Assembly (NCBI RefSeq): GCF_000015045.1
Contig: NC_008609.1
Span: 2,799,501-2,863,500, forward strand
Origin: Pelobacter propionicus DSM 2379
GTDB lineage: Bacteria; Desulfobacterota; Desulfuromonadia; Geobacterales; Pseudopelobacteraceae
Reading direction: 5' to 3'
DNA: 64,000 nucleotides
In this document: piece by piece, positions 48,292 through 53,000 of the stretch
How positions within the stretch are numbered: position 1 is the first letter of the stretch
Layout of the letters: every line of letters begins with the position of its first letter
The notes under the pieces: generated by a model
Seen by the model: the letters and a program-made list of their open reading frames with translations, nothing else
What the model was told of the DNA's origin: nothing
Databases searched by the model: none
Made by a program: the position numbers and the translations under genes

Positions 48292-48857
48292 GTATAGAAC
48301 CTACAAAAAAGGATTTTTATGATGGACATTCTCGGGGCTATTGGAGGAATTGCAGGAGTCGTCTCAACAATTCTGTTCGTCATATTCCGTAACAGCGCTC
48401 AGAAGTACGTTGATGAAAAAGCAAAAAATTTGGCAACAATTGAAGATACTGCCAGGATTACAACAGAAGTAGAGAAGGTGAAGACGGGGTACTTGCTTCG
48501 ATCCCATGCGTGGAAGCAGATTTTCGAAAAAGAATACGCCCTTTTAAAGGAAGTATGGAATTCAACATGGGAATTTCAGGCAACAGCACGGTCCCTTCGG
48601 CCAATAATGGATCATTTGCCCGAAGACACAGACAAACAACGAGAGGTATTTATTGAACGGCATAAAGTCTTTGCTGATAGCGTTAAGAATTTTCGGGATG
48701 TAGTGATAAAAAACAAGCCATTTATCCCGCCTCGTGTTTATGAGATATGCCTTGCCCTTCGCGAGATTGTTGTTGAGTTACAGGTCGATTTTGAAATTAG
48801 CTTCAATGATGATCAGCGCGCGGACTGGAGGAAAATTCACGAATGCGGAAAAAAACT

Positions 48858-50193
48858 CAGTAATTTCCGGTTAGGTCTTTGCATGTCGTCGTTTTTTCTT
48901 TAAAAGTTTGTTTTTGTGGGATTTTTGCTGTGTTCGCATCCGTTTTTGCTCTAGTTCTTCTGCTGCCTCATTGGCGATTTGGTTGCGTAATTCCCGTACC
49001 CGAGTGATGCTGACTGGTTCGTTGTGCTGCTCCCGGCAGTAAATAGCAAGAAGCAGATAGGTTATAAGGCCGCCAAGAAGCTGGACCATCAGCCCGTACT
49101 TGCTCCTGGCGATCAGGTGGTACACCTTGAGATGGCGTTTCCACCAGCCAAAGAAGGTCTCGATGTTCCAGCGGAGCTTATAGACTTCGGCGACTTGTTC
49201 AGCGGTCAGGTCGTACCTGTTGGTAGCGATCCAGTAATCTTTACCGTCAACACGGTAACCAACAAGGCGCAGTTCTTTCTCAGTCTGGTTTACGCCTTTG
49301 GTGCCGAGCATTACGATCCGGTCATAGAAGATAATACTGTCAGGATTGACGGCATTCTCTCTGATGACTATCTTGATCGTATTCTCCCTGATACGACAGA
49401 CAAAGAACTTCTCGGCGGCCTGCCACTTGTCAAAGTGGTCATGGGACTGATACCCGCGATCCATAACGCCGGTTTCGCCTTTGTCGATGATCTTGTCAAC
49501 AAAGGGGCGCTCACCCTCTTTACCGTCGCTGAGGTATATCTTCCTGGGAATGCCCCGGTTGATATCGAAGCCGACATGAGCCTTGGCCTTCTTTGAGCCG
49601 CTTCGGTAATCAGCCCATTCCATGGACAGCACAGCATCAATCAAAGAGCCATCTATGGATACCAGGTTGCCAAGGTGAGCGTATTCGGCCGGAAGCACTT
49701 TGCCTGCTTGCTTGACCAGATGTCCGAATACCTCACTTAGCTGCTCAAGGCCACGGTTATTGATCGCCTCGAAGAAGGCGCTCTTTTTGATCCCCTTGGG
49801 GGGAGCAACGCACTCCTTGGCAAAGTCATTCTGTTCCAGAGCCTGCAGCAGTTCGCTCCCGGAAGAAAACTCTTCAAGGTGATAGAAAATCAGGGCCTTT
49901 AGCTGATCATCAAAGGTCATTTGCAACGGGCGGTACCCCCTGGATTCAAGTTGTTTATCGGACTTGAATCTCTCAAAAACCGGGGTAAGAAGCAATTTGA
50001 AAGCACGTGCTTTTCGTCGTTGTTTCAGTCGCTTGAAAGGTCGCATGTCGTAACTCGTGTAATATTAAGTAGTTACGATGGTGGCCCGCCAATTTTTTAC
50101 TAAAAGTCAAGCAAAAAAAATGTGGCATCACGCTGATTTTGTTACTTTTTTACATTCTCAAAGAACCATGCAAAGACCTAACCGGACGACGCT
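48858..50193 (-). mobile_element. IS4-family insertion sequence, about 1336 bp
   Basis: Flanked by the direct repeat GAAAAAAACT (48848-48857 and 50194-50203). Near the ends is a perfect 19-bp inverted repeat, CCGGTTAGGTCTTTGCATG (48867-48885) and its complement (50167-50185), with weakly matching outer bases. It encodes one transposase. Intact ends and duplication suggest a recent, possibly active insertion. Confidence 0.88.
48871..50046 (-). CDS. IS4-family transposase
   Basis: 391 residues, DDE transposase of the IS4 group. First Asp in LVSIDGSLIDAV, second in GVMDRGYQSHDHF, and Glu in YKLRWNIETFFGWWK, which fits the IS4 signature Y-x2-R-x3-E-x6-K exactly. The C-terminus is strongly basic. 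The stop codon lies in the inverted repeat. No frameshift or internal stop, so probably functional. Confidence 0.95.
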   Translation of the reverse strand: MRPFKRLKQRRKARAFKLLLTPVFERFKSDKQLESRGYRPLQMTFDDQLKALIFYHLEEFSSGSELLQALEQNDFAKECVAPPKGIKKSAFFEAINNRGLEQLSEVFGHLVKQAGKVLPAEYAHLGNLVSIDGSLIDAVLSMEWADYRSGSKKAKAHVGFDINRGIPRKIYLSDGKEGERPFVDKIIDKGETGVMDRGYQSHDHFDKWQAAEKFFVCRIRENTIKIVIRENAVNPDSIIFYDRIVMLGTKGVNQTEKELRLVGYRVDGKDYWIATNRYDLTAEQVAEVYKLRWNIETFFGWWKRHLKVYHLIARSKYGLMVQLLGGLITYLLLAIYCREQHNEPVSITRVRELRNQIANEAAEELEQKRMRTQQKSHKNKLLKKKRRHAKT

Positions 50194-50364
50194 GAAAAAA
50201 ACTGGATGAAAAACTCGAAGAACTTAATGATGAGATTCGTGGCTATATTCACGGCAAAATATATTCAGCAAACCAAGCCATAGACACAGAAACATAATGG
50301 GTTCTCCCATCGGATAAAATGATAATGAGGACGAAACATGAGGGGGCAGCCCTTGAAAGTGGAA

Positions 50365-50450
50365 AACTAACAGCGTAGTTCCCAACCCACTCGGCGGCAG
50401 CTGGTCAGCGCGGAGGACCGCGCTGCCGCTGCGCCTCAGCCCCGTTAGCT
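50365..50450 (+). other. attC site 1 (integron cassette recombination site)
   Basis: AACTAAC (50365-50371) and GTTAGCT (50444-50450) are the outer R'' and R' boxes. Between them lies an imperfect stem: GGCGGCAGC (50393-50401) with GCTGCGCC (50428-50435, one extrahelical base), and CAGCGCGG (50406-50413) with CCGCGCTG (50418-50425). 86 bases. Crossover is expected after the G of GTTAGCT, and the next gene begins 10 bases later. Confidence 0.85.
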
Positions 50451-50459
50451 GAAAGAATT

Positions 50460-50909
50460 ATGACAAAAACAAACACAACGAAATCTGCATTGTTTTTCAG
50501 AGTAATGGTCTTCGTGGCGATTCACGTAGCGACCTTTGCGGCAATACTCAAAATCGAATGGCTGCAAAGCTTTCAAATGGCGGTTCTGGTCATTCCAGCA
50601 GCGAGTTACTTTACGATATTTTTCATTGAAGCAAAATCAAGAATAAACAAAGGATTGCCATATGATGAAGTGTGGAGAGGATGTTTCTGGTTTTCGTTCT
50701 GGGCCGGAGCATCTTTAACACTTCCATTCATCATATTCAGAGTGGGGCCTGATGGCCCCATAAAACTTGAGGACCTCAGCGTCAATTATTTGCTAGCATA
50801 TCCAATAAGTTGTGCAGTGTTTGGTGGGCTTACGGGACTTATAGGCACTGTTCTGATAAATCAGTTTTATGGCGCGCTTGGCGGCAATAACGATAAATGC
50901 AACAGCTAA
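50460..50909 (+). CDS. Cassette-borne membrane protein of unknown function
   Basis: 149 residues with about four hydrophobic helices (FFRVMVFVAIHVATFAAIL, FQMAVLVIPAASYFTIFFI, FWFSFWAGASLTLPFIIF, LAYPISCAVFGGLTGLIGTV). It starts 10 bases after attC site 1, and its stop overlaps the R'' box of attC site 2, so gene and cassette boundaries coincide. GAAAGAAT precedes ATG. No family recognised. The cassette runs about 50445-50957 (513 bp). Confidence 0.8.
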   Translation: MTKTNTTKSALFFRVMVFVAIHVATFAAILKIEWLQSFQMAVLVIPAASYFTIFFIEAKSRINKGLPYDEVWRGCFWFSFWAGASLTLPFIIFRVGPDGPIKLEDLSVNYLLAYPISCAVFGGLTGLIGTVLINQFYGALGGNNDKCNS

Positions 50910-50963
50910 CCAGGCGGCGGCACACAGACGCTGACGCGCTGGTGCGCCCCCACACCGTTGAAA
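50904..50963 (+). other. attC site 2
   Basis: R'' AGCTAAC (50904-50910), identical to the complement of site 1's R' box, and R' GTTGAAA (50957-50963), 60 bases apart, the classic 59-base-element size. Inner stem: GCAC and CAG (50920-50927) pair with CTGGTGC (50939-50945) with one extrahelical A. R' departs from the GTTRRRY consensus at its last base. Confidence 0.7.
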
Positions 50964-50985
50964 AATTTATTGAAGAAAGACCCAT

Positions 50986-51747
50986 ATGAATGATTGGTTT
51001 ACAATAGATCAGGTTGACAAGGAAACTTATATCATCAGCGAATACCGCCACTGGGAGGAAACGCATTGTTATCTCCTGAATGGTTCTGAGTACAGTCTGC
51101 TGATTGATACAGGTCTTGGAATCTGTAATATCTATAATGAGGTCATCAATCTGACTGACAAGCAGATTGCTGCCGTAGCCACTCACATTCACTGGGATCA
51201 TATTGGCGACCATAAATACTTTCCAGACTTTTACGCTCATGAAGAGGAACTAAATTGGCTCAGTGGAGAATTTCCTTTGACGATGGAGCAGATTAAAGAA
51301 ATGGTCGTTGACCGCTGTGACCTACCGGAAGGTTATGATGTAAACAACTATGAGTTCTTTCAGGGTACGCCAACAAAGGTGCTGAAGGACAATGATGTGA
51401 TTGACATGGGAAACCGCTGTATTCAGGTTCTGCATACGCCGGGCCATTCGCCAGGGCATATGTGCTTCTGGGAAAAGGAGCGCGGTTATCTTTTTACCGG
51501 AGACTTGGTTTATAAAGACACACTATTTGCCTACTTTCCGTCCACCGATCCAAAAGCGTACCTCACCTCTCTAGAACGTATATCGACTCTGCCGGTAAAG
51601 CGTGTGTTACCAGCACATCACAGCTTGAAGATTCAACCTGAGATTTTGATTCGAATGCGTGACGCTTTTCGGCAGTTGCAAAATGAGGGCAAATTGCATC
51701 ATGGCAACGGAACATTTAACTACGGAGATTGGAGTGTTTGGCTATAA
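50986..51747 (+). CDS. Metallo-beta-lactamase-fold hydrolase (cassette)
   Basis: 253 residues. Zinc motif THIHWDHIGDH (HxHxDH), then HTPGHSPGHMCFW with the third-site His, TGDLVYKDTLF with the bridging Asp, and LPAHHSLKI with the last His. This is a glyoxalase II/RNase Z-type MBL hydrolase, not a recognised beta-lactamase; substrate unknown. It begins 22 bases after the attC site 2 core with AAGAAAGA upstream, so it should be a cassette gene. I could not find an attC after it. Confidence 0.85.
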   Translation: MNDWFTIDQVDKETYIISEYRHWEETHCYLLNGSEYSLLIDTGLGICNIYNEVINLTDKQIAAVATHIHWDHIGDHKYFPDFYAHEEELNWLSGEFPLTMEQIKEMVVDRCDLPEGYDVNNYEFFQGTPTKVLKDNDVIDMGNRCIQVLHTPGHSPGHMCFWEKERGYLFTGDLVYKDTLFAYFPSTDPKAYLTSLERISTLPVKRVLPAHHSLKIQPEILIRMRDAFRQLQNEGKLHHGNGTFNYGDWSVWL

Positions 51748-51779: not shown

Positions 51780-52205
51780 TTAAAAATGTGGAGAAGCTGA
51801 GGAAAAGGAAAACAGTTGTAAAAATACTTGCCATAGAGGGTTGCACCGCCAAAGAGTCCCAGAGGGGTCAGCCCTTGACACGAGACAAAAATTAAAGGGC
51901 GAGGGTCCAACCAGGCAGAAACAGAGTATGGTAATGGTCCGTCCCATACCATGAAGAACATTAAAGAGGCTGGTTAGTTCTGGATTACCACGTTTGGAAA
52001 GCATCTGGTAAAGACTCTCACGTTTTACATGTGATCTTTCGGCAATTGCCGTCATGCCGCCATTAGCCTGCGCCACTTCCCGCAAGGCTAGCAGCATCGC
52101 TGATTTGTCACCCTCCTCCAAAACCGCATTCAGATATGCAGCGGCATTTTCTGGGGATTTCAGCCATTCATGAAGGTCGGATTCGTAGTCGGTCATATGT
52201 TTCAT
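51780..52205 (-). pseudogene. HigA-like antitoxin with replaced C-terminus
   Basis: Start ATG 52205 (AGGAG upstream, overlapping the toxin stop as ATGA). MTDYESDLHEWLKSPENAAA and LALREVAQANGGMTAIAERS through ESLYQMLSKRGNPELTSLFN are a HigA2-type antitoxin with its HTH. The match ends near residue 90 (HGMGRTI); about 50 unrelated residues follow, encoded by sequence that includes a GGGGTCAGCCCTTGA repeat. Antitoxins of this family have about 100 residues, so the tail was replaced by rearrangement. It may still fold its HTH. Confidence 0.7.
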
Positions 52206-52300
52206 TTTCGTTGCTCCTGATGGTTTTTCCAAAACCGTTGAGCGTTTTCTATATCGCGCTGCTGAGTCCGTTTATCTCCACCGCACAAAAGAAGACCGGG
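52202..52300 (-). pseudogene. Remnant of a HigB/RelE-like toxin (C-terminal 32 codons)
   Basis: The frame just upstream of the antitoxin reads LLLCGGDKRTQQRDIENAQR to a TGA at 52202, the C-terminus of HigB-type killer proteins. Everything before it is gone; the upstream sequence is unrelated GC-rich DNA. So the pair was a toxin-first TA operon, now without a toxin. Confidence 0.75.
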
Positions 52301-52413
52301 CTGGCGGGTCAACTGCCGACCCGGTGGGCGAAGCATGAAATCGAGCGATTGCATTAGTCGTTTTGTTGGTCTATATTTTGACCATAAAGAGATTTGTATC
52401 AAGGAGGAAAACA

Positions 52414-52704
52414 TTGAGAACTATTTCAATCAGTAATGACATTATTCCAATTGCAGAATTTAAAACCAATATTTCCAAGTGGTTCAAAATACTTCAGACA
52501 TCCAGACATCCGCTTATCATTACCCAAAACAGCAAACCAGCTGGTGTACTGTTGTCCGCTTCGGATTACGATGAATTGGTATACCGGAAATCATTTCTAG
52601 ATTCTGTTGAGAGGGGGATTTCGGACGTTGAAAACGGCCGCACCCAAACGACTGGCGAACTACGAAAGACGCTGCAAGCCCGAAGAAGTGCGGGCAATCC
52701 ATGA
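52414..52704 (+). CDS. Phd/YefM-family antitoxin
   Basis: 96 residues from TTG 52414, six bases after AAGGAGG; the ORF from 52363 has no ribosome site. IIPIAEFKTNISKWFKILQ, HPLIITQNSKPAGVLLSASD and YDELVY are the Phd/YefM fold that binds DNA as a dimer and covers the toxin with its C-terminus. It overlaps the toxin start by four bases (ATGA). It probably represses its own promoter just upstream. Confidence 0.9.
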   Translation: MRTISISNDIIPIAEFKTNISKWFKILQTSRHPLIITQNSKPAGVLLSASDYDELVYRKSFLDSVERGISDVENGRTQTTGELRKTLQARRSAGNP

Positions 52705-53000
52705 ACATAACCTGGTCACAGGAAGCTGGTGAAAATCTAGCAGATACAGAGGAGTTCATTGCACGCGATAGTCCGGAGCGCGCTGCCCGGTTTGTAGATG
52801 CCATTATTGACCACGCTGAAGCAATTCTGGCTGACAATCCGAGAAGCGGGAGGACTGTGCCAGAAATAGGTAATCCTGACATACGAGAGCTTATTTACCG
52901 AGGATATCGCGTTGTTTACCGATTGAATGGTGATCGAATCGACATACTTACCGTTTTTGAAGGGCATCGGCTATTGCGACTGAATGAGTCAGGCGATTAG
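52701..53000 (+). CDS. RelE/ParE-family toxin
   Basis: 99 residues: ITWSQEAGENLADTEEFIAR, NPRSGRTVPEIGNPDIRELI, YRGYRVVYRLNGDRIDILTV and FEGHRLL, the standard ParE/RelE fold. ParE members poison gyrase, RelE members cut mRNA on ribosomes; the sequence does not settle which. Intact and paired with the preceding antitoxin. TA pairs are frequent in integron arrays, where they stabilise cassettes, but I see no attC around this one. Confidence 0.9.
   Translation: MNITWSQEAGENLADTEEFIARDSPERAARFVDAIIDHAEAILADNPRSGRTVPEIGNPDIRELIYRGYRVVYRLNGDRIDILTVFEGHRLLRLNESGD

Follow-up and report, generated by a model that had tools for sequence, protein, structure and literature searches.

The window analyzed here is a 64,000-nucleotide stretch of the Pelobacter propionicus DSM 2379 genome (contig NC_008609.1), in which an insertion sequence lies within the first gene of an integron cassette array (Table 1). 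Two features of the sequence point to an integron: an IntI-type tyrosine recombinase and an attC-like site that follows the cassette gene. In the integrase, only residues from ~162 onward fall within the TIGR02249 model, and the ~160 amino acids before them form an N-terminal extension. The attC-like site matches six of seven outer bases, and its bottom-strand fold beats all 200 shuffles; a second candidate site at 50903-50970 folds more weakly (z -2.44, with 4 of 200 shuffles as good). The original prediction that the first cassette gene is interrupted agrees with this arrangement, in which the integron integrase adjoins the gene and the attC-like site closes it. Downstream of the second cassette-like ORF lies a metallo-beta-lactamase-superfamily gene (50986-51747), and toxin-antitoxin-like genes occur near the array at 51780-53000, namely an HI1420-type antidote on the minus strand and a Phd/YefM-ParE pair.

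Table 1. Features of the interrupted cassette gene, the inserted element, and their integron surroundings (positions in the window)
Feature	Position	Strand	Evidence or remark
Integron integrase, 474 aa	46604-48028	-	TIGR02249, 357 bits (cut-off 265)
Interrupted first-cassette gene, 5' part, 179 codons plus two bases	48319-48857	+	N-terminal hydrophobic helix, long helices; PHROG 26391-like
Target duplication, left copy, 9 bp AAAAAAACT	48849-48857	.	
Complete IS4-family (IS4Sa-like) insertion sequence, 1337 bp	48858-50194	-	One of six identical genome copies
Inverted repeat, left end (window orientation), 28 bp	48858-48885	.	23/28 aligned positions matched with other end
Transposase gene, 391 aa	48871-50046	-	DDE_Tnp_1 and NCBIfam IS4 matches; YREK at residues 289-303
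Terminator-like stem with T run, within the element and directed at the cassette array	50079-50091	+	Consensus match only
Inverted repeat, right end (window orientation)	50167-50194	.	
Target duplication, right copy, 9 bp AAAAAAACT	50195-50203	.	
Interrupted gene, 3' part, last 31 codons including codon 180 across the junction, with TAA	50204-50297	+	
attC-like site (AACTAAC ... GTTAGCT) that closes the first cassette	50365-50450	+	Bottom strand folds, z -4.07

The boundaries of the element were settled by comparing its copies. The original prediction had reported a 10-bp repeat, GAAAAAAACT, at 48848-48857 and 50194-50203 directly flanking the element, and this repeat is present at both positions. 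The target duplication itself, however, is 9 bp long, as it is in all six genomic copies and in three of three delimited relatives: the element ends with the G at 50194, which matches by chance the base preceding the left duplication. The element consequently measures 1337 bp instead of the predicted 1336 bp. Once this G is included, the termini read CAG...CTG and the inverted repeats stand in register. Searching the genome itself (4.24 Mb in 3 contigs) with the 1337-base query returned six full-length copies at 100% identity, plus one 35-base match at 89% identity. Perfect 9-bp duplications flank all six full-length copies, and it is this combination of identical copies and clean duplications that fixes both the element ends and the duplication length. 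The further copies (G000:C3, positions 1900243, 1967503, 2709475, 2964195, and 3705009) occupy the targets GCTCTCTCC, ACTCCTCAT, TATCAATTG, CAATAAACT, and ATGCGGGAT, all different from AAAAAAACT. The A-tract named by the original prediction as the target is thus a true description of the window site but not a rule for the element. Several of these five copies lie in or beside long open frames.

Homologous elements from other genomes share 81-85% identity and the same ends. Eleven such loci were examined; for three of them a script could place both ends, and all three carry a 9-base duplication and the CAG/CTG ends of the window element. One relative in another genome (G082) is also inserted in AAAAAAAGT. 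In an assembly from the same genus, bases 1-55 of two contigs (G001, C62 and C185) match the first 55 bases of the element at 93% identity, a pattern that looks as if the sister-species assembly were broken at copies of a related element.

The IS4-family identity that had been proposed is upheld by the transposase, which is encoded by a single ORF, matches the DDE domain model DDE_Tnp_1, and scores 232.8 bits against the NCBIfam IS4 transposase model (cut-off 115). The Y-(2)-R-(3)-E-(6)-K motif is exact (YKLRWNIETFFGWWK). The likely catalytic residues are spaced D132-63-D196-99-E296, where D132 and D196 were assigned through the SIDGSLI and MDRGYQS motifs. The IS4 revision of De Palmenaer et al. 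2008 (PMC2266710) gives approximate spacings of D(60~110)D(100~150)E, and the second spacer here (99) falls one residue under the approximate lower bound, which we count as agreement with the family. The family's target duplication of ~10 bp corresponds to the 9 bp seen in 6/6 copies. For the IS4Sa subgroup, Table 1 of the revision lists a size of 1150-1750 bp, ends of the form CA------T, duplications of 8-10 bp, and the YREK motif (PMC2266710). Here, both ends (CAGTAATTT and CAGCGTCGT) begin with CA and have T at position 9, and the length and duplication lie within the listed ranges. Judged by size, ends, duplication, and YREK motif, the element fits the published IS4Sa subgroup as a putative member. 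The nearest annotated plasmid elements, in contrast, are distant, with 25-31% protein identity among the 12 plasmid matches listed, some of which are labelled IS4Bsu1 and ISRel1.

The insertion is recent, as the original prediction had proposed. This is supported by the six identical copies, all with perfect 9-bp duplications, so that recency is now based on copy identity and no longer on the open frame. The six copies of 1337 bases show zero differences; with a star tree and an assumed rate of 2e-10 per base and generation, this places their separation within the last two million generations or so (95% limit). We consider it fairly probable that the element landed in the cassette gene by chance during its expansion, regardless of the function of the gene, since the five other identical copies are scattered over the genome at varied targets and DNA matches to the element occur in 52 of the 274 genomes examined from the class (own genome counted). 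Expression in integrons is normally highest for the cassette in first position, however, which makes the lack of effect that such a neutral hit entails not assured.

Removing the element together with one copy of the duplication (48858-50203) yields a single open frame of 210 codons, stop-free until the TAA at 50295-50297, with codon 180 spanning the restored junction, exactly as originally described. Any clean insertion into a gene would be expected to give back the frame upon such a deletion; what is informative in the reconstruction is the 31-codon continuation. The open frame by itself is weak evidence of one gene because a second right-flank frame is also open for 25 codons, while the third stops after 1. 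With the element in place, the present ORF encodes 194 amino acids, of which 179 are native and 15 are read into the element. The intact product is predicted to have 210 residues, mainly in helices, and to be anchored in the membrane by its N-terminus. Its structure prediction is mostly helical and of low confidence (mean pLDDT 67.4, pTM 0.47), and a fold search against the PDB gave no match at E <=0.001.

By a profile match over the length of the family, the interrupted protein belongs to PHROG 26391, a family of no known function. The members compared were those of phage Cartapus (CAH1234794.1) and Escherichia coli LF82 (WP_000366628.1) and, more distantly, phage Riah (WNL50577.1). These proteins share with the window protein an N-terminal hydrophobic stretch, a length of 203-249 amino acids, and near full-length alignment at 27-31% identity. 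They differ in being phage-borne and not integron-borne; the window protein extends further by some residues at its C-terminus, and its gene is interrupted. In the Peduoviridae genome of Cartapus, the homologue is the last annotated gene, after gpA, and DNA of this gene region has matches in 111 of 5426 complete E. coli genomes. In the only one of the 111 examined, LF82, the homologue sits in a P2-like prophage, in the interval from the replication endonuclease gene to the portal gene, beside a DUF4145 protein.

A weaker relative was located in another integron. In a genome of the same class (G219), a 229-amino-acid protein (L033:1624-2313) is encoded by a cassette gene with an attC-like site on either side, following an integron integrase of which the C-terminal part is present. 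This protein resembles the window protein in being an integron cassette product that matches PHROG 26391, but it is uninterrupted and matches at residues 10-88 only (E 1.1e-4). The first cassette ORF after that integrase piece (714-1487 of the same locus, G219:C41; 257 amino acids) has no NCBIfam match and, in our reading, resembles a trypsin-type protease. A closer relative (E 2.1e-21) is found in a genome of the same family (G651), where the contig stops close by; small ORFs and an attC-like hairpin are its neighbors, and no integrase is in view. Another genome match (G629, L031) reaches PHROG 26391 with E 7.1e-7.

The recurrence of an accessory gene in both phages and integrons suggests a possible phage-related role. 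More weakly, we infer that the intact protein belongs to the mobile accessory proteins and plausibly acts against phages; the element may thus have switched off a small anti-phage gene whose product is anchored in the membrane. The account of P2-like phages in PMC9122126 describes the replication-portal interval as a hotspot of anti-phage genes that also holds other functions. The relatives thus occupy places where defence genes are often kept by phages and integrons. It is unlikely that the cost of an active anti-phage gene led to selection of the insertion, a scenario reported for IS insertions into cas genes. The placement of the LF82 homologue in that hotspot and the cassette relative in G219 would accord with selection, and inactivation of cas genes and other defence systems by IS insertion is on record (PMC10359306). 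Against it, the window protein and two phage homologues matched 0 families in PADLOC at E 0.1, the window protein had no Pfam match above cut-off and no significant fold match, P2 hotspots hold non-defence genes too, and one allele cannot separate selection from drift. Among the papers searched, none mentions the identifiers of the family. More speculatively, the interrupted gene could belong to a family, so far undescribed, of small helical anti-phage proteins with a membrane anchor, found both in chromosomal integrons and in P2-like prophages at their cos-proximal hotspot, with the copy here freshly silenced by the element, a proposal that we regard as doubtful.

The fit of the 31-codon continuation to the homologues was quantified. 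Against PHROG 26391, the 179-residue part matches at residues 2-170 (63.5 bits, E 4.3e-17), the IS-fused ORF at residues 2-171 (63.2 bits, with no gain from the element-derived residues), and the joined protein at residues 2-196, aligned to profile positions 5-197 of 203 (65.8 bits, E 8.6e-18). The joined protein thereby gains 2.3 bits over the 5' part. A profile built from seven phage proteins gave 86.5 bits for the joined protein and 83.7 without the tail (~3 bits added). In controls with 5000 tails each, a score as good or better was reached by 82 shuffled tails and by 42 taken from other frames of the window. A first random-tail control (53 of 1000 reached the joined score, as did 14 of 1000 shuffles) was discarded since its pool included the N-terminal part of the query. 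The original prediction had named, as the outcome that would count against it, homologues that end before the element or continue differently after it. In the alignment, the phage homologues (~30% identity) instead run past the equivalent insertion point and end slightly earlier than the joined protein. With BLASTP, the Cartapus protein aligns across the junction as far as residue 196, and the match of the Riah protein ends before the junction. Homologue support for the tail, and with it for one gene, is real but modest. It is very improbable that the two halves were never one gene, with the 5' ORF ending near the junction and the 31 open codons arising by chance: although another right-flank frame is open and the tail scores just modestly over shuffles, the perfect duplication shows that the flanks were contiguous, the phage homologues pass the equivalent point and end soon after, and the joined protein lengthens the profile match.

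The original prediction had also proposed a search for the uninterrupted protein in other integrons. This produced the weaker uninterrupted relative in the G219 integron; an IS-free allele was not found in searches of plasmids, phages, viral contigs, and genomes, where the closest homologues located are ~30% identical. The pre-insertion state is therefore reconstructed and not observed. Searches for the uninterrupted gene gave 0 matches among 72,556 plasmid records, and tblastn with the 179-residue part matched 3 of 50,697 phage records, two of them the same phage. In viral contigs, an alignment query matched 15 loci and a single-protein query none. Genome searches for the gene matched 2 of 97 relatives and 2 of 395 genomes of the phylum, and those with PHROG 26391 matched 2 of 198 and 4 of 277 genomes (own genome counted in each). 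Two scans of genome contigs, each with two short peptide patterns of low sensitivity, gave no match. Two candidate matches were set aside as unreliable, one in G095 that involves N-terminal residues only and lacks a PHROG match, and one in G191 that is a stretch within a longer, different ORF.

The locus as a whole is best explained, and we hold this with high confidence, by a recently active cut-and-paste element of the IS4Sa type that hit codon 180 of the first integron cassette gene. The element inserted into the gene at the head of a chromosomal integron array and duplicated 9 bp of target. The insertion swaps the last 31 residues of the protein for the 15 read into the element, and it places an antisense transposase unit between the leader side of the integron and the downstream cassettes. 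The analysis shows the element with its ends, duplication, and copy number, the open frame, and the continuation of the homologues. As an IS insertion, the event is ordinary; the most useful by-product of the analysis is that it links a broken cassette gene to a phage-hotspot family of no known function.

The inferred consequences for the array are loss of function of the first gene product and possible polarity on the cassettes behind it. Because 179 of the 210 residues are kept, the 194-amino-acid fused product could retain activity. Promoter-like sites in the scanned region were not above chance (2 found versus 4.2 expected), and terminator-like sites numbered 8 versus 3.6 expected. Since the terminator-like hairpin within the element faces the array, the downstream cassettes may lose transcription from the leader.
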